Assembly (NCBI RefSeq): GCF_000018285.1
Contig: NC_009901.1
Coordinates: forward strand, 3,099,001 to 3,163,000
DNA: 64,000 nt
Direction of reading: 5' to 3'
Source: Shewanella pealeana ATCC 700345
GTDB lineage: Bacteria > Pseudomonadota > Gammaproteobacteria > Enterobacterales > Shewanellaceae
Positions 21,254 through 64,000 of this stretch are shown in pieces. The notes under the pieces are model-generated. The model searched no databases and was not told the DNA's origin. It worked only from the letters and a program-made list of their open reading frames with translations. The position numbers and the translations under genes were made by a program. The number at the start of each line of letters is the position of its first letter. Position 1 is the stretch's first letter.

Positions 21254-21295
21254 TGTTTGAGGAAGTAAAACTGGGAATGAGCGAGAAGTGGTGGG
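21254..21295. repeat. Direct repeat flanking the array (second copy of 21092-21133)
   Basis: About 42 bp (TGTTTGAG, GAAGTAAAACTGGGAATG, AGCGAGAAGTGGTGGG) occur both in front of the relic tRNA and in front of the last intact tRNA, with one mismatch, 162 bp apart. This marks an old duplication that carried a tRNA copy. Confidence 0.8.
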
Positions 21296-21364
21296 CTGTG
21301 AAGGATTCGAACCTTCGACCAATTGGTTAAAAGCCAACTGCTCTACCGACTGAGCTAACAGCCC
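21289..21364 (-). tRNA. tRNA-Lys(UUU), copy 1
   Basis: 76 nt with encoded CCA. The minus strand gives acceptor GGGCUGU/ACAGCCC, a D-arm with AGCUCAGUCGGUAGAGC, anticodon loop CUUUUAA (anticodon UUU), and the T-loop UUCGAAUC. It decodes AAA/AAG. This is the last intact gene of the array in the direction of transcription. Confidence 0.97.
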
Positions 21365-21422
21365 CTCTGGGTATTGCGTCTCTGAATTCATCTGCTTTGC
21401 AGCAAACCCACTTTCAGAAAAG

Positions 21423-21498
21423 TGGTGGGCTGTGAAGGATTCGAACCTTCGACCAATTGGTTAAAAGCCAACTGCTCTACCGACTGAGCTAACAGCCC
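21423..21498 (-). tRNA. tRNA-Lys(UUU), copy 2
   Basis: Identical 76-nt gene with CCA. One C is missing from the leader next to the acceptor 5' end compared with most copies. Confidence 0.97.
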
Positions 21499-21556
21499 TC
21501 TGGGTATTGCGTCTCTGAATTCATCTGCTTTGCAAGCAAATCCACTCTCAGAAAAG

Positions 21557-21632
21557 TGGTGGGCTGTGAAGGATTCGAACCTTCGACCAATTGGTTAAAA
21601 GCCAACTGCTCTACCGACTGAGCTAACAGCCC
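21557..21632 (-). tRNA. tRNA-Lys(UUU), copy 3
   Basis: Identical 76-nt gene with encoded CCA and anticodon UUU. Confidence 0.97.
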
Positions 21633-21690
21633 CTCTGGGTATTGCGTCTCTGAATTCATCTGCTTTGCAGCAAACCCACTTTCAGAAAAG

Positions 21691-21766
21691 TGGTGGGCTG
21701 TGAAGGATTCGAACCTTCGACCAATTGGTTAAAAGCCAACTGCTCTACCGACTGAGCTAACAGCCC
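21691..21766 (-). tRNA. tRNA-Lys(UUU), copy 4
   Basis: Identical 76-nt gene with encoded CCA and anticodon UUU. Confidence 0.97.
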
Positions 21767-21825
21767 CTCTGGGTATTGCGTCTCTGAATTCATCTGCTTT
21801 TCAAGCAAATCCACTTTCAGAAAAG

Positions 21826-21901
21826 TGGTGGGCTGTGAAGGATTCGAACCTTCGACCAATTGGTTAAAAGCCAACTGCTCTACCGACTGAGCTAACAGCC
21901 C
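21826..21901 (-). tRNA. tRNA-Lys(UUU), copy 5
   Basis: Identical 76-nt gene; its 3' flank carries the CTTTTCAAGC spacer variant. Confidence 0.97.
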
Positions 21902-21958
21902 TCTGGGTATTGCGTCTCTGAATTCATCTGCTTTGCAGCAAACCCACTTTCAGAAAAG

Positions 21959-22034
21959 TGGTGGGCTGTGAAGGATTCGAACCTTCGACCAATTGGTTAA
22001 AAGCCAACTGCTCTACCGACTGAGCTAACAGCCC
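21959..22034 (-). tRNA. tRNA-Lys(UUU), copy 6
   Basis: Identical 76-nt gene with encoded CCA and anticodon UUU. Confidence 0.97.
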
Positions 22035-22092
22035 TCTGGGTATTGCGTCTCTGAATTCATCTGCTTTGCAAGCAAATCCACTCTCAGAAAAG

Positions 22093-22168
22093 TGGTGGGC
22101 TGTGAAGGATTCGAACCTTCGACCAATTGGTTAAAAGCCAACTGCTCTACCGACTGAGCTAACAGCCC
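22093..22168 (-). tRNA. tRNA-Lys(UUU), copy 7
   Basis: Identical 76-nt gene with encoded CCA and anticodon UUU. Confidence 0.97.
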
Positions 22169-22226
22169 CTCTGGGTATTGCGTCTCTGAATTCATCTGCT
22201 TTGCAGCAAACCCACTTTCAGAAAAG

Positions 22227-22302
22227 TGGTGGGCTGTGAAGGATTCGAACCTTCGACCAATTGGTTAAAAGCCAACTGCTCTACCGACTGAGCTAACAGC
22301 CC
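22227..22302 (-). tRNA. tRNA-Lys(UUU), copy 8
   Basis: Identical 76-nt gene with encoded CCA and anticodon UUU. Confidence 0.97.
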
Positions 22303-22361
22303 CTCTGGGTATTGCGTCTCTGAATTCATCTGCTTTGCAAGCAAATCCACTCTCAGAAAAG

Positions 22362-22437
22362 TGGTGGGCTGTGAAGGATTCGAACCTTCGACCAATTGGT
22401 TAAAAGCCAACTGCTCTACCGACTGAGCTAACAGCCC
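22362..22437 (-). tRNA. tRNA-Lys(UUU), copy 9
   Basis: Identical 76-nt gene with encoded CCA and anticodon UUU. Confidence 0.97.
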
Positions 22438-22495
22438 CTCTGGGTATTGCGTCTCTGAATTCATCTGCTTTGCAGCAAACCCACTTTCAGAAAAG

Positions 22496-22571
22496 TGGTG
22501 GGCTGTGAAGGATTCGAACCTTCGACCAATTGGTTAAAAGCCAACTGCTCTACCGACTGAGCTAACAGCCC
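22496..22571 (-). tRNA. tRNA-Lys(UUU), copy 10
   Basis: Identical 76-nt gene with encoded CCA and anticodon UUU. Confidence 0.97.
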
Positions 22572-22630
22572 CTCTGGGTATTGCGTCTCTGAATTCATCT
22601 GCTTTTCAAGCATATCCACTTTCAGAAAAG

Positions 22631-22706
22631 TGGTGGGCTGTGAAGGATTCGAACCTTCGACCAATTGGTTAAAAGCCAACTGCTCTACCGACTGAGCTAA
22701 CAGCCC
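22631..22706 (-). tRNA. tRNA-Lys(UUU), copy 11
   Basis: Identical 76-nt gene; its 3' flank carries a CTTTTCAAGCATATCC spacer variant. Confidence 0.97.
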
Positions 22707-22765
22707 CTCTGGGTATTGCGTCTCTGAATTCATCTGCTTTGCAAGCAAATCCACTCTCAGAAAAG

Positions 22766-22841
22766 TGGTGGGCTGTGAAGGATTCGAACCTTCGACCAAT
22801 TGGTTAAAAGCCAACTGCTCTACCGACTGAGCTAACAGCCC
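22766..22841 (-). tRNA. tRNA-Lys(UUU), copy 12 (promoter-proximal)
   Basis: Identical 76-nt gene, first in the transcript. Its 5' flank differs from the internal spacers and leads to the array promoter about 95 bp upstream. Confidence 0.97.
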
Positions 22842-22935
22842 ATCTAGTATTACTGATATCTTTACTCACCAGTCAGAATTACTAACTTTATGATTTAAGA
22901 TACCCCCGAGTGACTGTGTCTCTCTGAGGGCGCCT

Positions 22936-55975: not shown

Positions 55976-58765
55976 TTGTCGAAAGCTAAACAGATTAAAA
56001 CCAGTCCTAACGATCATCGACTTTACCGCCATATCAAACTCAAAAATGGCTTGTCGGTGTTGCTGGTTGAGGATCAACAGACAAGTCAAGCTGCTGCCTC
56101 GATGGCTGTAGCGGTCGGTCATTTTGACGATCCAGTTTCACGTCCCGGTATGGCCCACTTTCTTGAGCACATGTTGTTTCTCGGTACCGAAAAGTACCCC
56201 GAGTCTGGTGAGTATTCGGCCTTTATCAATCAACACGGCGGCACCAATAATGCTTGGACCGGTACCGAACATACCAACTTCTTTTACAGTATTAATGCCG
56301 AGCAATTCGAAGCTTCGTTAGATCGCTTTAGCCAATTCTTTATTGCTCCACTGTTTAATACTGATTTGGTTGACCGAGAGCGACAGGCTATTGAGTCCGA
56401 GTTTAGCATGAAGCTAAAGGACGATATTCGCCGTGTCTATCAAGTACAAAAAGAAACGGTGAATCCAGCGCACCCGTTTTCAAAGTTTTCCGTTGGTAAC
56501 CTAAAAACCTTGGCAGGTGAAGAAAGTGGGTTAAGGGAAGAACTACTGCACTTTTATCAAGAGAAATACAGTGCAAGCATCATGACTCTGTGCCTAGTAG
56601 CCCCCCTAAACCTAAAGCAGTTAGAAGAACTCGCGAATGAGTACTTCAGTGATATTAGCGACCATATCCGTAAAGACGCTTATCCGGATATTGCTATTTA
56701 CTTACCTGAGCAGCTGCAAACACAAATCAATATCGTGCCGCTCAAAGAGCAAAAACGCGTCGCTATTACCTTTGCCCTGCCCGCTCTCGAACATTTTTAT
56801 CAGCATAAGCCACTGACTTTTATCAGCCACTTATTGGGTTATGAAGGTAAAGGAAGTCTACTGTGCTATTTAAAGGCGTTAGGGCTTGCCGATAACCTCT
56901 CTGCAGGAGGTGGCGTCAATGGCTATAATTTTAAAGATTATAATGTCAGTATTCAGCTGACAGACCGAGGTATTGAAGAGTTAAATACCGTTATAGAAGC
57001 AACATTTGAATACATAGAGTTAATCCGTCAACAGGGCTTGCAAGCTTGGCGTTATGATGAACGAGCAACATTGCTAAAGATTGCGTTTCAATATCAAGAG
57101 CAGGTCGACTCTTTAGATTTAGCCAGCCATCTAAGCATTAATATGCATCACTATGATATTGCAGATATTATTTACGGTGACTACCGTATGGATGGTCTAA
57201 ATCTAGTAGAAACAGAGCAACTACTATCCCTGATGACTCCGCAAAACATGCGAATTCAGTTGATTGCACCTGAGCTTAATACCAACAAACAGGCCGATTG
57301 GTATCACTCGCCTTATCAAATGACCCCCATAGCAGCAGACAAAATCGCTAAATGGTCAAATATCACTGTACGTAATGCGCTGAGCCTACCATCAAAGAAT
57401 CCTTTTATTAATAATGAATGTGTTGCTCGCCCAGATAAAAGTACCAATAAGGTACCTGTTGTTGTTGCACAAAAAACCGGATATCGGATCTGGCATCGAA
57501 AGGATGATGAATTTAACGTCCCAAAGGGACATTTATATTTATCGCTAGATTCAGCACAGGCTGCGGCTTCACCTAAGCACGCAGCGTTGACGCGTCTATA
57601 CGTTGAAATGCTACTCGACTATCTGACTGAATATACATACCAAGCTGAAGTCGCAGGTCTAAGTTACAATATTTACCCGCATCAAGGCGGCATCACGCTA
57701 CATTTAACTGGATTTACTGGCAAACAGGAAGCGCTGCTAGAACTGGTTATAGCAAAAGCGAGAGAGCGTAACTTCACTCAAAGCCGCTTCAATCTGATTA
57801 AGCGCCAAATACTACGGGCTTGGTATAACCACTCTCAAGCTAAACCCATTTCTCAGCTATTTACTAGCCTGACAGTAACCTTACAAAAACGCAGCTTCGA
57901 GCCGTCTAGAATGGCCGAGTTACTCGAAGAAATTACTCTCGATGACCTGCACGCCCATGTTAAAAACTTCTATGAAAAAATTCATTTAGAAGGCCTTGTC
58001 TATGGTGATTGGCTAGAAAGTGAAACAAAGGTGTTGGGTGAGCGCTTAGAAAAAGTGTTATCACTAGTGTCCACTCCCAGCCGAGAATCATCACGAGAAT
58101 TGATTGATTTGTCAGATAAAGGAACCCTTTTACGGGAAATTCCTGCATCACATCCAGATAGTAGCATTATTGTCTACTATCAATCTGATGTGACAACTCC
58201 AGAAACTATGGCACTGTTTAGCCTTCTGAACCACACCATGTCCTCGACTTTCTTCCATGAGTTACGCACGCAGCGCCAACTAGGGTACATGGTCGGGACT
58301 GGCTATCTTCCTCTAAACCGTTATCCGGGGATTATTTTTTATATCCAGTCGCCAACATCCGGCCCAAAACAATTACTAGAAGCGATAGATGAGTTTATCG
58401 CTGACTTTACCTATGCCATATTACAAATCACCAACGCGCAGTGGGAATCAACTAAACACGGACTTATCAATCAATTACTTGTAAAAGACTCGAGCCTTAA
58501 AGCCCGCAGTCAACGTTACTGGTCAAGCATAGGCAACAAAGACTATAAGTTTAACCAAAGAGAGTCTGTCGCTGAACACATAAAATCTCTCACCCGCGCC
58601 GATCTTATTAAATTCATCATGCAGAAAATGCGCACCAAGCATTGTGATCGTTTAGTGTTATTTAGTACAGGTGACTCTCACTTAGAACAGGCACCTCTTG
58701 AGTCAGACAAAATGATCACCGATCTTCGCGCTTTCAAACAAGCTGCTCAGCAATTTGATTATTGA
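55976..58765 (+). CDS. Insulinase-family (M16) zinc metalloprotease
   Basis: A 929-residue protease like E. coli pitrilysin (PtrA, 962 aa), but without a signal peptide, so apparently cytoplasmic. The inverted zinc motif HFLEHMLFLGT is near residue 60, and the downstream Glu ligand is in ERQAIESEFSMKLKDD. The rest of the four-domain clamshell is present (AFFVGSG-like region HELRTQRQLGYMVGTGYLPL in the last domain). The start is a TTG at 55976 with GGAG seven bases upstream. A long inverted repeat follows. Confidence 0.92.
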   Translation: MSKAKQIKTSPNDHRLYRHIKLKNGLSVLLVEDQQTSQAAASMAVAVGHFDDPVSRPGMAHFLEHMLFLGTEKYPESGEYSAFINQHGGTNNAWTGTEHTNFFYSINAEQFEASLDRFSQFFIAPLFNTDLVDRERQAIESEFSMKLKDDIRRVYQVQKETVNPAHPFSKFSVGNLKTLAGEESGLREELLHFYQEKYSASIMTLCLVAPLNLKQLEELANEYFSDISDHIRKDAYPDIAIYLPEQLQTQINIVPLKEQKRVAITFALPALEHFYQHKPLTFISHLLGYEGKGSLLCYLKALGLADNLSAGGGVNGYNFKDYNVSIQLTDRGIEELNTVIEATFEYIELIRQQGLQAWRYDERATLLKIAFQYQEQVDSLDLASHLSINMHHYDIADIIYGDYRMDGLNLVETEQLLSLMTPQNMRIQLIAPELNTNKQADWYHSPYQMTPIAADKIAKWSNITVRNALSLPSKNPFINNECVARPDKSTNKVPVVVAQKTGYRIWHRKDDEFNVPKGHLYLSLDSAQAAASPKHAALTRLYVEMLLDYLTEYTYQAEVAGLSYNIYPHQGGITLHLTGFTGKQEALLELVIAKARERNFTQSRFNLIKRQILRAWYNHSQAKPISQLFTSLTVTLQKRSFEPSRMAELLEEITLDDLHAHVKNFYEKIHLEGLVYGDWLESETKVLGERLEKVLSLVSTPSRESSRELIDLSDKGTLLREIPASHPDSSIIVYYQSDVTTPETMALFSLLNHTMSSTFFHELRTQRQLGYMVGTGYLPLNRYPGIIFYIQSPTSGPKQLLEAIDEFIADFTYAILQITNAQWESTKHGLINQLLVKDSSLKARSQRYWSSIGNKDYKFNQRESVAEHIKSLTRADLIKFIMQKMRTKHCDRLVLFSTGDSHLEQAPLESDKMITDLRAFKQAAQQFDY

Positions 58766-58860: not shown

Positions 58861-59057
58861 CTAAACCGTCCACTGTTGTTAGCGCAATAATCCACACGCA
58901 ACACAAATTCGAGCTTAAACCGCAGGGTAACAGAAAGGATAAGAATGATTATCTGCTACAATTACCTCTATAATTTTTGACAATACCCTCGCTTTCTGAA
59001 AAGGTGGTGATAACAAGTAGTTGCCTTTCAATGTTGGCTAATAATCAAACAGAAAAT

Positions 59058-62000
59058 ATGCCTAGAATTCTTATAAAAATCGCGACTTTTCTACTCTTTT
59101 GCATTTCTATGGCAAATTCTGCCTATGCATTAACCTTAAACTCTACTTCTTTAGGCGTTCAAGATGGTTTATCACAAAGCAATGTGACCTCCATTGTCGA
59201 AGATGCCGATGGTTATATCTGGATAGGAACAGTCAATGGCCTTAATCGATATGACGGTAAAGAGTTTCGCCATTACTTCCCATCCAAAGAGAATGAACTC
59301 CCAAGTGCATTCATTCGTAGTCTATTTATCAGCGATACGGGTGTAATGTACATAGGTACTGATAAAGGTCTAGCTGTTTATGATTCATTAACCGATAGAG
59401 TGATCTCAATAAAGTCAGGCGACTTTCTTAAAGAACAAGCTATTTGGTCAATATCTGATAATGGAAATGAAATTATTATTGGGGCAGAGAATGCAGTTTA
59501 TATAACACAAGAAAATTCAAAAGAAGCTGTTCTTGAATTATTAAACTCCTACAGTGGCGATTATAATGGAGTAAAGCAAGCAATTCATTTCAAGAATGAA
59601 ATATACATAAGGAATTATATAGGCGAAGTTAAATCAATACAAAACACCCATGAACTTTACTTCCAAAAAGCTACAGCAATAAAAGAAATCAACAATAAAC
59701 TAGTCGTGTTCACAACCGACGGTATATATGAGATGGCAAACGCGTCATTCTCAAAAAAAAATAACGATTCATTTATAAGCGTTTCCTCTGGAGATGGGCA
59801 TTTCGCATTAAAAGAAAGTGCCATCTATGATATATCGAAACTTACAAGCCCTTTATTAATCGGAACCCCATCTCTATCAGAAAGAGAACTAAACCTGTCA
59901 AGGATAAATATTTTTAGAGGGTTAAATAAAACCTTCATAGCACATCAAAATGAAGGGGTAATTATAATAGATGATAATTATAATCTCATCCAAAGTATTA
60001 CTAACAACATTGGCAACGTATGGTCTATATCTGAAGACGACGAAAATAAAATTTTAGTAACTACTGAGGATAGTAAACTAAAACTGTATAACTTAGAATT
60101 TGAACTAATTAAAGAATATGAAACTGGACTATATGGAAACAAATCAGCTTTAACGGTTGATAACAATATATACATTGCCAGCGATCTAGGCCTTTTTTCT
60201 ATCAATAAACAGACTGAAGTCTTATCCAGTGTGAACCAAGGTTCATACTTCCTGTTAGAGAAATTAAACGATGGTAAGACCATAGTTGCTGGTTCATCAA
60301 ATGGATCCATATTAAAATATAACACTCTAGACAAATCATCTAAGAACATTAGAATTGACAGAGTAAACCCTATATTTGACATTCAAGAACTAAATAACTC
60401 TTTGTATGTTGGTACGCAAAGCGGCCTATATAAAGTTGAAAACAACAAAACAAAAATAATATATGACGAAAACTTTGTAACAAGCATTACAAAATCTGGT
60501 AGTTCACTATACTTCGGAACAAGCACTGGGATAAAAAAGTACTCAACAACGAGAAACAGCATTGAAGATGTTTACTCCAACAAAAAACCGATATTTTCTT
60601 TAGCCATAAATAATCAACAGTTATACGCATCATCGATAAATGAAGTGATCATTCATAACTTCAAAAACACTTCAACTTCAATACTAACTAATGAGTTAGG
60701 AGCGCAAGAAGAATACAATTTACAATCTATCCTAGACAATGATAGTGAAGTTTATATTGGTGGTATTTCCGGAGTCAGTAGAATAATCACTAAAGAATTG
60801 AATTCTTTTTTAGAACGCAACACTCCGCCTATAACCGAACTAACAGAACTTTCGATCTTTAATATTATCGAAGAACCAAATGGCTCCGTACTAAAAAATC
60901 AATTATCTCAGACAGATAAAATAAAGTTGAAATATTCTGACTACCCCTTCACTCTATCTTTTAGCAGCCCAGGCAGCTCTTTTAAACATATTAACTATGT
61001 ATATCAAATGCAGGGACTTTCGGAATCTCAGATCCAATCAAAAGGCACAAATTCGGCAACCTATACCAATTTGTCTCCAGGGGATTATATTTTTTCCATC
61101 TATGCAATAGACCCTGTTACGGGTAAGAAAGGACAAATTCGTGAGTTAAATATTGAGATCACACCACCTTGGTGGTTATCAATCACGGCGAAGTTTATCT
61201 ATCTACTCTGTTTCATATTCATCTCTATCTTAATTATCAAAACCATACTACGTCGGCGTGAAATTCAAAGACAGATAGCCAAGAGTGAGGAGCGCCTTAA
61301 GCTTTCTCTTTGGGGAAGTGGCGATGAAATGTGGGACTGGGACATTGAAACAGGCCAAATTTACCGCTCAAATATCTGGGGCTCCCTAGAGTTCCCTCAA
61401 GATGGACAGCGTTCAGGTAATAATGGGGAAGAGAGTAACATCCACCCAATGGATCAGGAGCGTGTCCGCGAAGCATTAAATAAACATTTTTACGGTGAAA
61501 CCGATCACTTTGAAGCGGCCTATCGAGTCAAAGGCAAATCAAACGACTGGGTTTGGATCTTAGATAGAGCGAAAATTGTTGAACGTGATGAAAACGATAA
61601 TGCGCTCAGAATGACAGGAACCATCAAAAACATCAGCAACTTTAAGCAAGCCGAAGAACAATTAAGATTGTTTGAACGGGCCATTCAGAATATTTCTGAA
61701 GGTATGTTTATTCTCGATAGAAACTTTAAGTTTGTAGAAGTGAATGAAGCATGCTGCGACTTATCTATGATGAGTAAGAATGAGCTCATTGGCACCCTAT
61801 TTAATTTTGATCTCTATCCAGATAGCTATTCAGAGCAGATCCGTTCAATACTTAAGCAACAAGGCCGTTGGAACAATGAAGTCGAATCAATAAGAGGCAA
61901 CGGCAGCAGCTTTTTAATGGAGCTCTCCGTCGATGCTATTTATGATGAGCAAGGCGAACTATCACATTTTGTAGGTGTATTCTCCGATGTCAGTCGCCGT

Positions 62001-63341
62001 AAACAACAAGAAGAAGAGCTTAGAAAACTCACAAACAACGATCTGCTAACTAACTTACCTAACCGTTCTAATTTGATGGTAACCCTTGGCAACCTAGTCA
62101 AGAGAGACTCTCACCATACTCTGATGGTTTTAGATTTAGATAATTTTAAGAAAATTAATGATTCATTAGGGCATCAAGCCGGAGATGAACTTTTAGTACA
62201 AGTGTCAGAACGTATTCAAGTCGCCGTACCTAGTCATACCAGTATCTATCGCTTAGGTGGAGATGAGTTTGCAATATTAGTTGATAAAAATCCTGATATC
62301 GGGACTAGCGCCATAATTGCCAAAAACGTTATTCACGCCTTCGAAGCCTCTTTTGAACTAAGCAGTGAAAAAGTCGTCGTTGGTTTAAGTATTGGTATTG
62401 TGTTGTATCCAGAAGATGATCAAAACGAGCAGGCGCTCCTAAGAAAGGCAGATATCGCTATGTATCATGCTAAATCAGCAGGTGGTAACCGTTATCAATT
62501 CTACTCTGAATCCTTGAACAAAAATGCCATTCGCCAGTTAGAAGTTGAAAACCTGATTAGAGATGGCCTTAAAGACGATCTATTTGAAGTCTATTATCAG
62601 CCTAAAGTCGATTTAAAAACTGGCCATATGGCGGGAATGGAAGCCTTAGTGCGCTTAAATCACCCAGAGCTAGGTTTAATCGCACCTAATGAATTTATCC
62701 CATTAGCAGAAGAGAATGGCTTGATTGTCGAAATTGGCGATGTAGTACTCAAGAAAGCCTGCTTCGCGGCGCAAAAGTGGCGCTCACAAGGCTTGTTCAA
62801 CGGACGAGTCGCTGTCAATTTATCGTCGAAACAGTTCGCATTACCTGATTTACAGCAGCGAGTCGAGTCAATTTTACGTCTAACTCAATTACCCGCCGCT
62901 AATTTAGAGCTCGAAATAACCGAAGGTACGGTTATTAAAGAGCCTGAAAAAGCAATCAAAGTGATGCAGCAATTATCTAAAATGGGCGTTAGTTTAGCCC
63001 TCGACGATTTTGGTACCGGTTACTCATCACTTTCTTATTTAAAGCGCTTTCCTATCCACACTTTAAAAATTGACAAGGCTTTTGTTGATGATATTGACAA
63101 GTCTGATCGCGATCTAAAAATGGTCGACTCTATTATCACTATTGCCCACAATATGGGGCTCTCAGTGGTTGGTGAAGGTGTTGAAGATGCCTCTCAGCTC
63201 AGTATATTGCGCGCCTTAAAATGTGAAGAGATCCAAGGCTATATCTTCAGCAAGCCTGTGACTGAATCCAAATTTACCCTGCTACTTCAGCAAGACTCGA
63301 ATAACCAACCAATGACAGCACTCCCCGCAAAAAGAGGTTAA
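59058..63341 (+). CDS. Periplasmic-propeller PAS-GGDEF-EAL membrane sensor
   Basis: A large c-di-GMP enzyme, 1,427 residues with the ATG at 59058, which gives the clean signal peptide MPRILIKIATFLLFCISMANSAYA; the frame is open to 58977. A periplasmic two-component-regulator propeller spans about 25-600 (LGVQDGLSQSNVTSIVEDADGYIWIGTVNGLNRYDG and repeats of YIASDLGLFSIN type), then a Y_Y_Y domain (LSFSSPGSSFKHINYVYQMQGL) and a membrane helix near 705-730. Two PAS regions follow (about 745-985). GGDEF is intact (YRLGGDEFAILV, about 1065), and EAL also (GMEALVRLNHPE, about 1194; LALDDFGTGYSSLSYL). The propeller coding region (59.4-60.9 kb) is visibly more AT-rich than the enzymatic half. It is 98 bp upstream of the repeat-peptide gene on the same strand. 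Confidence 0.93.
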   Translation: MPRILIKIATFLLFCISMANSAYALTLNSTSLGVQDGLSQSNVTSIVEDADGYIWIGTVNGLNRYDGKEFRHYFPSKENELPSAFIRSLFISDTGVMYIGTDKGLAVYDSLTDRVISIKSGDFLKEQAIWSISDNGNEIIIGAENAVYITQENSKEAVLELLNSYSGDYNGVKQAIHFKNEIYIRNYIGEVKSIQNTHELYFQKATAIKEINNKLVVFTTDGIYEMANASFSKKNNDSFISVSSGDGHFALKESAIYDISKLTSPLLIGTPSLSERELNLSRINIFRGLNKTFIAHQNEGVIIIDDNYNLIQSITNNIGNVWSISEDDENKILVTTEDSKLKLYNLEFELIKEYETGLYGNKSALTVDNNIYIASDLGLFSINKQTEVLSSVNQGSYFLLEKLNDGKTIVAGSSNGSILKYNTLDKSSKNIRIDRVNPIFDIQELNNSLYVGTQSGLYKVENNKTKIIYDENFVTSITKSGSSLYFGTSTGIKKYSTTRNSIEDVYSNKKPIFSLAINNQQLYASSINEVIIHNFKNTSTSILTNELGAQEEYNLQSILDNDSEVYIGGISGVSRIITKELNSFLERNTPPITELTELSIFNIIEEPNGSVLKNQLSQTDKIKLKYSDYPFTLSFSSPGSSFKHINYVYQMQGLSESQIQSKGTNSATYTNLSPGDYIFSIYAIDPVTGKKGQIRELNIEITPPWWLSITAKFIYLLCFIFISILIIKTILRRREIQRQIAKSEERLKLSLWGSGDEMWDWDIETGQIYRSNIWGSLEFPQDGQRSGNNGEESNIHPMDQERVREALNKHFYGETDHFEAAYRVKGKSNDWVWILDRAKIVERDENDNALRMTGTIKNISNFKQAEEQLRLFERAIQNISEGMFILDRNFKFVEVNEACCDLSMMSKNELIGTLFNFDLYPDSYSEQIRSILKQQGRWNNEVESIRGNGSSFLMELSVDAIYDEQGELSHFVGVFSDVSRRKQQEEELRKLTNNDLLTNLPNRSNLMVTLGNLVKRDSHHTLMVLDLDNFKKINDSLGHQAGDELLVQVSERIQVAVPSHTSIYRLGGDEFAILVDKNPDIGTSAIIAKNVIHAFEASFELSSEKVVVGLSIGIVLYPEDDQNEQALLRKADIAMYHAKSAGGNRYQFYSESLNKNAIRQLEVENLIRDGLKDDLFEVYYQPKVDLKTGHMAGMEALVRLNHPELGLIAPNEFIPLAEENGLIVEIGDVVLKKACFAAQKWRSQGLFNGRVAVNLSSKQFALPDLQQRVESILRLTQLPAANLELEITEGTVIKEPEKAIKVMQQLSKMGVSLALDDFGTGYSSLSYLKRFPIHTLKIDKAFVDDIDKSDRDLKMVDSIITIAHNMGLSVVGEGVEDASQLSILRALKCEEIQGYIFSKPVTESKFTLLLQQDSNNQPMTALPAKRG

Positions 63342-63381
63342 AAGACGCAACGCAGGAAACATTGGCACAACAACTGCAACA

Positions 63382-63439: not shown

Positions 63440-63766
63440 ATGAAAACAATAATTAAAGGTTTAGTTACTTCTGCAGTCATCGCTTGCTCTATGCCAGCAT
63501 TCGCATCTCAAAATTCAGATGTAGCTCAATCCAATGTATTTGACCTAAATACAAATATTAGCTTAGCGGGCATTCCAAACATTAGATTCAAGCCTGTACA
63601 AACAGCGGGTATTCCAAACATTCGATTCAAGCCTGTACAAACTGCGGGTATCCCAAACATTCGATTCAAGCCTGTGCAAACAGCGGGTATTCCAAACATT
63701 CGATTCAAGCCTGTACAAACTGCTGGTATTCCAAACATTCGATTTGCAAACCAAGCAACTGCTTAA
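63440..63766 (+). CDS. Exported tandem-repeat peptide precursor (4.6 x 13 residues)
   Basis: A 108-residue protein of no family I recognise. Sec signal peptide MKTIIKGLVTSAVIACSMPAFA, a short spacer (SQNSDVAQSNVFDLNTNISL), then four identical AGIPNIRFKPVQT units and a fifth AGIPNIRF followed by ANQATA. At DNA level the units are 39 bp (63566-63745), nearly identical but with scattered synonymous changes (ATT/ATC, ACA/ACT, GCG/GCT, GTA/GTG). Only silent changes plus one codon swap for Arg (AGA/CGA) have accumulated, so the peptide sequence itself seems conserved by selection. GAAGG precedes the ATG. Repeated release of an exported 13-mer, a repeat-based adhesin or a binding scaffold are all possible. 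Confidence 0.85.
   Translation: MKTIIKGLVTSAVIACSMPAFASQNSDVAQSNVFDLNTNISLAGIPNIRFKPVQTAGIPNIRFKPVQTAGIPNIRFKPVQTAGIPNIRFKPVQTAGIPNIRFANQATA
63566..63745 (+). repeat. 39-bp in-frame tandem repeats (4 full, 1 partial)
   Basis: Units start at 63566, 63605, 63644, 63683 and 63722 (partial). Each encodes AGIPNIRFKPVQT. Confidence 0.95.
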
Positions 63767-63780
63767 TAAAGGACATAAAG

Positions 63781-63897
63781 ATGTTTGATTCAATTAAGAA
63801 AGTCCTAGGTTTTGAAAAGCCCGCTCGTAAAAAAGTTCAGCTTCCTGAAGGTTTGAACCATTTACAAGTAATCCCAGCTAAAGTCTGGTGGAATTAA
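63781..63897 (+). CDS. 38-residue microprotein 1 (unknown family)
   Basis: Starts 12 bp after the repeat-peptide stop, with AAAGGAC upstream. Reading: MFDSIKKVLGFEKPARKKV, then QLPEGLNHLQ, then VIPAKVWWN and stop. It has no signal peptide; the first half is a basic amphipathic stretch. The start of the next gene is a close paralogue (MFNSLMKVLGLAKPARKKV, QLPDGL), so the N-terminal 25 residues are conserved while the tail may vary, a pattern seen for leader/core peptides. Too short for routine gene callers. Function unknown. Confidence 0.75.
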   Translation: MFDSIKKVLGFEKPARKKVQLPEGLNHLQVIPAKVWWN

Positions 63898-63924: not shown

Positions 63925-64000
63925 ATGTTTAATTCATTAATGAAAGTACTTGGATTAGCTAAACCTGCTCGTAAGAAGGTGCAGTTGCCTGATGGCCTAG
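63925..64000 (+). CDS. Paralogous microprotein 2 (partial, cut by the window end)
   Basis: ATG at 63925 with AAGGAG eight bases upstream. The visible residues are MFNSLMKVLGLAKPARKKV then QLPDGL. Of 25 aligned residues 19 are identical to microprotein 1. Its end lies outside the window, so its length and tail are unknown. Confidence 0.75.
   Translation, partial: MFNSLMKVLGLAKPARKKVQLPDGL

Follow-up and report, generated by a model that had tools for sequence, protein, structure and literature searches.

The window analyzed here, the whole 64,000-nucleotide stretch of the Shewanella pealeana ATCC 700345 genome, carries near its 3' end a gene (A) for an apparently exported tandem-repeat protein, preceded on the same strand by a gene for a large membrane sensor and followed by genes for small peptides (B):

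55976..58765, + strand: M16 peptidase, an upstream neighbour rather than a dedicated part of the cassette (Pfam; kept where the cassette is absent)
59058..63341, + strand: sensor, proposed receptor (Pfam; start codon chosen by us, the list of open reading frames having a TTG at 58977)
about 59130-61160, + strand: periplasmic Reg_prop beta-propeller plus Y_Y_Y part of the sensor (Pfam)
63363..63379, + strand: sigma54-type (-24/-12) promoter-like site TGGCACAACAACTGCAA, 77 bp upstream of the A start codon (ATG)
63440..63766, + strand: gene A, exported tandem-repeat protein and proposed peptide precursor (ORF of 108 aa)
63440..63505, + strand: Sec-type signal sequence of A, MKTIIKGLVTSAVIACSMPAFA (read by eye)
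63569..63763, + strand: five A units with core GIPNIRF, four of them full GIPNIRF-KPVQTA in the register preferred here and the fifth GIPNIRF-ANQATA
63781..63897, + strand: gene B1, 38-aa peptide MFDSIKKVLGFEKPARKKVQLPEGLNHLQVIPAKVWWN, without a signal peptide (ORF)
63925..64000, + strand: gene B2, a B1 paralogue that runs 41 bases past the window end (read in L002)

The array consists, in the ORF translation, of four exact copies of AGIPNIRFKPVQT followed by AGIPNIRF-ANQATA. It was detected independently by TRF (63565-63744, period 39, 4.6 copies, score 311) and occurs once in its own genome by DNA search. An earlier note on this DNA had described a Sec-exported protein whose mature part is almost wholly repeat. 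The signal sequence agrees with export, and the four exact copies and partial fifth are as described, but a spacer of about 21 residues separates the signal peptide from unit 1, so the mature protein is mostly, rather than wholly, repeat. The 13-residue repeat is likewise real, but its register was set one residue off: the natural unit looks like GIPNIRFKPVQTA, core GIPNIRF plus a linker, judging from the C-terminal Ala of 57/65 A proteins and from an apparent signal-peptidase site that directly abuts unit 1 in two relatives (after AFA in L088 and VFA in L094). Five codons vary among the four full DNA units (GGC/GGT, ATT/ATC, AGA/CGA, GTA/GTG and ACA/ACT, compared by eye), all silently, as the earlier note had it; chance or very recent duplication is ruled out as their origin, since the units differ without any amino-acid change.

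No Pfam or NCBIfam family, including adhesin/curlin families and folding repeat domains, matched the window's A protein above its cut-off, in line with the earlier remark that no described family was known to have this unit. A match to Pfam DUF865 (24.1 against a cut-off of 27) was taken as chance, and that of the relative L108 to EPTP (36 against 21 bits for the whole protein, yet with no single stretch that passes) as repeat-driven chance, as were other repeat-driven family matches of A relatives. The AF2 model of A, from an alignment of six rows only, has no confident fold (pLDDT 40.6), which may fit a precursor but is weak evidence. The traits of RiPPs were not found at the locus, where A has a Sec-type signal (by eye) instead of a cytosolic leader and no modification enzyme adjoins it.

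The sensor has 1,427 residues and comprises a signal peptide, a Reg_prop beta-propeller with Y_Y_Y, a transmembrane helix, PAS domains, GGDEF and EAL (Pfam). Both Reg_prop and Y_Y_Y score above cut-off, as in propeller receptors, and the AF2 model of the ectodomain is confident (pLDDT 89.9). The nearest solved fold is that of BT4663 (TM up to 0.78, 19-20% identity), by its title a heparin/heparan-sulphate sensor, which we count against a peptide-receptor reading. The output typical of HTCS proteins (histidine kinase, AraC) is absent from the window's sensor, which has GGDEF and EAL in its place (Pfam). All 58 sensors whose frames are intact contain GGDEF and EAL as literal strings, and mean identity among them is 34% in the propeller and 77% in the cytoplasmic part; left out of this set, for want of an intact long frame, were L088, L109, L119, L122, L129, L135, L137, L139 and L149. 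In PMC4168976, SO3084, which may be this sensor, is listed among transposon insertions left unexplained.

The sensor gene ends 98 bp before A in the window. Among the 65 loci where A and the EAL end were both located, the two genes share a strand and are 79-201 bp apart in 64, sensor first; the exception is G092, with 12.7 kb between them. A whole-sensor match was found in 58/61 fetched loci, the misses being two contig ends (L135, L137) and L122, the locus of G092. A gene for a putative secreted precursor thus adjoins one for a membrane protein with a putative receptor role. The intervening DNA carries TGGCA[CT]-N6-TGC 61-109 bp before the A start codon in 65/66 loci (64/65 without a duplicate genome; exception L134), and the element also precedes non-repeat versions of A and occurs in another genus, while a slightly looser form turned up in 90 of 7414 background windows (160 bp each, with the true sites among them). 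Judged by the sigma54 consensus, the A loci have, as a sequence motif, the GG-N10-GC element at a conserved position that a sigma54-dependent gene should have.

B1 starts 14 bases after the A stop codon. A B profile matched 119/129 genomes of the genus, and these 38-residue peptides are usually encoded downstream of A; B was undetected in L153, where A is present. Other neighbours of A, besides the M16, sensor and B genes, are a small unnamed ORF and, beyond B on the opposite strand, genes with enoyl-CoA hydratase/3-hydroxyacyl-CoA dehydrogenase and thiolase domains, presumably fadJ and fadI. An ORF with the working label duf454 had no Pfam match. The M16 peptidase was considered as a dedicated processing enzyme and rejected, as it is retained without the cassette and no signal peptide was seen in its frame.

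Occurrence and selection within Shewanella

A profile built on the first six relatives matched A in 114/129 genomes of the genus, and named relatives were all from Shewanella (4 named among 5 matches, and 15/15 loci in another search). For comparison of loci (L) and genomes (G), 60 regions were fetched, mainly from genomes in few contigs and from genomes without an A match, and their proteins extracted. Copy number ranges from 4 to 34 units in arrays scored in 59 genomes; the L093 array, outside that set, has three. The unit is 13 residues long in 56/66 scored loci, with lengths of 9, 14 and 15 also found, and 11 inside L101. In two arrays of mixed unit length, L101 (G049; 13 and 11) and L140 (G034; one short unit), the core is kept and the linker alone is shortened. 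Units are near-uniform inside one genome and unlike between genomes (GHPYVKFKPFEVA, AAPGVRWTPMELA, SIPAIKVLNTQMA, GSPHIRYTA and others). The same locus can also hold single-copy versions of A (L138, L146-L149); in G096 A has a single unit, and array collapse is possible there, its assembly being a draft.

Selection within arrays is strongly purifying. In 60/60 arrays pN was below pS, with a pooled pN/pS of 0.13, deviant last units counted; these arrays represent 59 genomes, L122 and L154 being from the same genome and counted twice. The earlier proposal of selection on the peptide itself is thereby strengthened, and the outcome that would have spoken against the earlier note, free amino-acid drift in a protein without homologues, is not what we found: amino acids are constrained and homologues widespread.

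This constraint is unevenly spread along the unit. Counted without an anchor over 670 internal units of 51 arrays, residues 1-7 differ from the array consensus at 0.5% and residues 8-13 at 5.0%; in the last unit of the same 51 arrays agreement with the consensus is 97% for the core and 32% for the five residues after it. Left out of this count were broken, cut or very short arrays (L087, L096, L139, L142), non-repeat loci, and arrays with a unit length other than 13 (L093, L102, L118, L133, L136). The pattern xxPx[IVL][KR]x occurs at least three times in all 60 repeat proteins, its positions being fixed by construction where it doubled as the anchor; the anchored count gave 0.35% for the core and 4.9% for the linker, with constancy at Pro3, [IVL]5 and [KR]6 partly by construction. 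What stays fixed in the unit is a core of seven residues, approximately G-x-P-x-[IV]-[KR]-hydrophobic, and the remainder behaves as a linker. Given these rates and the contrast within the last unit, the conserved entity is a heptapeptide core plus a linker.

Presence and absence of the cassette

Six of the 129 genomes (G055, G091, G095, G097, G104, G109) lack matches to A, B and the sensor at 1e-60. In the four with a readable context M16 and fadJ/fadI are direct neighbours, which means that the whole cassette is missing; the other two stop at contig borders. Conversely, sensor, A and B are kept in L088, L090, L094 and L132, where fadJ/fadI are missing from the fetched stretch.

Three genomes with A and B fell below the 1e-60 threshold for the sensor: G038, at a contig end, where the EAL part was found, and G066 and G122, where sensor frames are split. 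The matches to sensor, fadJ and fadI are all in pieces in the last two (L109 and L129, respectively), which suggests sequencing errors over gene loss. Several cases count against the proposed reading: in G122 the cytoplasmic part of the sensor alone was detected, and the sensor frame is interrupted in G005, G082 and G084, with A open in G005 and G082 and short in G084. The cassette of G084 (L139) looks to be decaying: its sensor has an in-frame stop, its array is short and its B matches fall in two separate frames. Four genomes (G114, G115, G118, G120) have the sensor without A or B, and a 59-residue non-repeat secreted protein at A's place; G474, from another genus of the family, has the sensor and A, with B undetected.

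Co-divergence of propeller and unit

Divergence of the repeat unit tracks that of the adjacent propeller. In a partial Mantel test, a type that can be anticonservative, on the 41 genomes with 13-residue arrays and with sensor, M16 and fadJ all present, unit and propeller similarity were correlated with the cytoplasmic part, M16 and fadJ controlled for (r=0.34, p=0.001). The control correlation of M16 with the propeller was r=0.01 (p=0.39) given the cytoplasmic part and fadJ, and r=0.10 (p=0.07) given the cytoplasmic part alone; unit against M16 gave r 0.03. The genome nearest by propeller differs from that nearest by cytoplasmic part in 27/48 genomes, and unit identity to the propeller-nearest genome was higher in 16 of these 27, lower in 8 and equal in 3, a borderline result (p=0.06). 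Propeller and unit identity were correlated (Spearman 0.54) over the 95 pairs, not independent of one another, whose cytoplasmic parts are at least 90% identical.

The most telling evidence of co-divergence comes from local pairs, above all L105/L127 and the two-island pattern. In L105/L127, fadJ and M16 are 100% identical (rounded) and the cytoplasmic part 99%, whereas the propeller is 34% identical and the units are different. Sliding DNA identity in four pairs gave divergent islands at the propeller and at the array, with some 2 kb of conserved DNA between them; identity in this stretch, by 200-base bin, was 94-98% in L105/L127 and 78-92% in L107/L115, the most distant pair. The candidate ligand and receptor ectodomain are therefore polymorphic together, compared between species, with a conserved intracellular part, and the twin islands resemble the linked ligand/receptor alleles of pherotype systems. 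B was rejected as a specificity partner because its proteins are nearly unchanged where unit and propeller diverge, differing, by eye, at 1, 3, 1 and 0 of 38-39 residues in the four pairs.

Relatives beyond Shewanella

A propeller profile found this sensor type in 82/394 sampled genomes of the order at 1e-90, in 22/114 genera, and in 3/369 sampled genomes of the class at 1e-80, all three from this order. Outside Shewanella, peptide genes, copy numbers and B-like ORFs were recognized by eye. A small secreted peptide gene lies just 3' of the sensor in 36/51 further regions, 23 with a multi-copy core and 13 single, and in 26/30 further regions with fadJ; six regions where no EAL end or no intact sensor ORF could be located (L178, L204, L206, L208, L213, L218) were scored as misses in the 36/51. 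Units outside the family are unlike those of Shewanella: ATRRGMIRI-SNELDTQES (L181), HIPIRF-EPVAEQ (L199), RVIIRY-AQQDEQ (L198), AGKRIKI-SDEFSIKQ (L173) and ARGTKVDPQSRL (L185). L170 and L175 have three W-R-type cores with unlike spacers, and L174, L177, L182 and L187 have single-copy peptide genes. A stop codon follows right after the core in 17/23 multi-copy genes, three of the other six being cut by contig ends. A sigma54-type element is present in 30/36 peptide-bearing further regions, and 14/36 peptide genes are followed by B-like peptides, the majority of which have WW and one further residue at the C-terminus.

Other observations outside the genus count against the reading: no peptide was recognizable in L169, L205, L209 or the second sensor copies L215-L217; L201-L203, from one genus and in the fadJ neighbourhood, have the sensor without a recognizable peptide gene or sigma54-type site; and family f7 and L211-L212 lack the promoter motif. 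Protein database searches with the relatives L181 and L108 gave none and one match, respectively. Weak A-profile matches in G138 and G282, outside the family, were rejected, as the fetched regions held no related repeat protein. One relative, L192 (G467; 1247-2809), has 521 residues, with REGAIDPVNSL-like units followed by RLGEGDPAKIA-like units. The end of the L179 (G187) peptide ORF resembles a sequencing-adapter stretch and is probably an assembly artefact.

Discussion

Together, A and its sensor look like a system of peptide signalling, so far undescribed, in Shewanella and its relatives. What computation shows is the gene order and promoter motif, a core under selection, arrays of varying copy number, absence and divergence of the parts together, and occurrence in several families of the order. 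Our best explanation, which we hold to be rather probable, is that A is the precursor of a peptide pheromone encoded in tandem copies and that the upstream sensor is its c-di-GMP-coupled receptor. A sigma54-type promoter would drive A and the small B genes, and A would be a Sec-exported precursor of a species-specific signal, whose active part may be the core heptapeptide (here GIPNIRF) or a 13-mer containing it. We infer that the precursor is cut in or beside the linkers, outside the inner membrane, and that the released peptide would bind the periplasmic beta-propeller of the sensor. Binding would then alter GGDEF-EAL output, and hence shift the c-di-GMP level in one direction or the other, with possible consequences for surface attachment, biofilm and motility; the peptide could act on neighbouring cells or on the producer only. 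Copy number could set the dose, and homogenization together with selection may keep the copies equal. Ectodomain and peptide may evolve as a matched, repeatedly replaced pair, such that each lineage hears its own kind and replacement of the linked ectodomain and array yields new specificities. The earlier note had recognized a layout like that of polyprotein peptide precursors, and the contrast between core and linker, copy-number variation, single-copy forms and co-variation of the unit with the adjacent ectodomain all favour that view.

The main rival explanation leaves A uncut: its whole, disordered chain of repeats would serve as a multivalent ligand or a component of the matrix, engaging or clustering many propeller sensors or else signalling contact with the envelope or a surface, and copy number would tune avidity. 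The mostly high and variable copy number of the scored arrays would suit such a chain, as would the predominance of 13-residue units, the lack of a stable fold in the AF2 model of A and the fact that no protease-like gene was seen between the sensor and fadJ at the window's own locus. However, single-copy versions occupy the same locus both within Shewanella and in other families, where the core is also often the end of the protein and spacers are variable (L170, L172, L175), and linkers tolerate change while cores hardly do. We regard an uncut chain as unlikely.

Two further explanations give the shared divergence a different cause. If A were the precursor of an antimicrobial or kin-discrimination peptide, with B as immunity protein and the propeller under arms-race selection, one could account for the K or R plus hydrophobic residues of the cores, for units that differ between species and for a small second gene beside A; yet B does not diverge with the unit, L153 has A with B undetected, and GGDEF and EAL motifs mark the variable partner as a signalling protein, all of which make this improbable. 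Alternatively, A may be a surface protein with a structural or adhesive role, its gene simply adjoining that of a sensor which controls it, and the shared divergence would come from hitchhiking at a recombination hotspot. Adhesin loci, too, can show repeats, export, control by sigma54 and c-di-GMP genes, but hitchhiking sits poorly with the well-conserved DNA between the islands of L105/L127 and with M16, which has no such partial correlation once fadJ is included. Nearly fixed cores beside varying linkers also argue against it, and small or single-copy forms are unlikely as matrix polymers; of the explanations considered, we find this one the least probable.

The tandem pheromone-precursor reading has analogues elsewhere. 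The Gram-positive systems Staphylococcus agr, ComX/ComP and CSP/ComD also place a secreted precursor beside a membrane receptor (putative at our locus), with ligand and ectodomain diverging together and the intracellular part conserved. Unlike these, the present locus is Gram-negative and combines a Sec signal peptide and tandem copies with a beta-propeller GGDEF-EAL receptor candidate; it has no maturase or histidine kinase, and no sequence relation to them was found. The HTCS proteins BT4663 (PDB 4a2l) and BT3049 (3v9f) share with the sensor a periplasmic Reg_prop propeller plus Y_Y_Y and a similar fold, at 16-20% identity, but signal through a histidine kinase rather than PAS-GGDEF-EAL; and where BT4663 senses heparin, by its title, the window's sensor is paired with a peptide gene. 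Yeast alpha-factor and neuropeptide polyprotein precursors resemble A in having a signal peptide followed by near-identical copies of a short peptide with spacers, but these are eukaryotic and have dibasic processing sites, which the window's A lacks, and no homology is claimed. In other Gram-negative c-di-GMP signal systems, such as ScrABC of Vibrio parahaemolyticus, periplasmic input likewise controls a GGDEF/EAL protein, but the input is not known to be a ribosomally made repeat peptide and gene organization differs.

The A/sensor pair may thus work in principle like a pherotype system while apparently belonging to none known, no part of it having been found in one. The window's A has no homology to a described precursor family above Pfam or NCBIfam cut-offs, and a search of open-licence papers brought up nothing on this repeat-protein family, though an unnamed mention may exist. 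We judge the system new, since it departs from the known pherotype systems in the kind of receptor, precursor and promoter, in output and in taxonomic setting. Whether it amounts to an undescribed class of Gram-negative peptide signalling in several families of one order, with sigma54-driven, often tandem precursors, hypervariable beta-propeller receptors that turn the released short peptides directly into a c-di-GMP signal, and pherotypes that co-evolve to provide a separate channel for each species or strain, seems to us evenly balanced.

To our knowledge, peptide pheromones are the rule in Gram-positive bacteria and scarcely known in Gram-negatives, and we know of no signal for most GGDEF/EAL sensors. 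The locus supplies a candidate receptor, a predicted ligand of a size suited to synthesis, many natural variants and a model species, Shewanella oneidensis, with routine knock-outs. What propeller GGDEF-EAL sensors sense, and whether Gram-negatives have pherotypes, could be tested directly through it.

Elsewhere in the window, at 21286-22845, about 11 tandem units of 134 bp form a separate array; by eye, their consensus looks like a tRNA gene on the minus strand.
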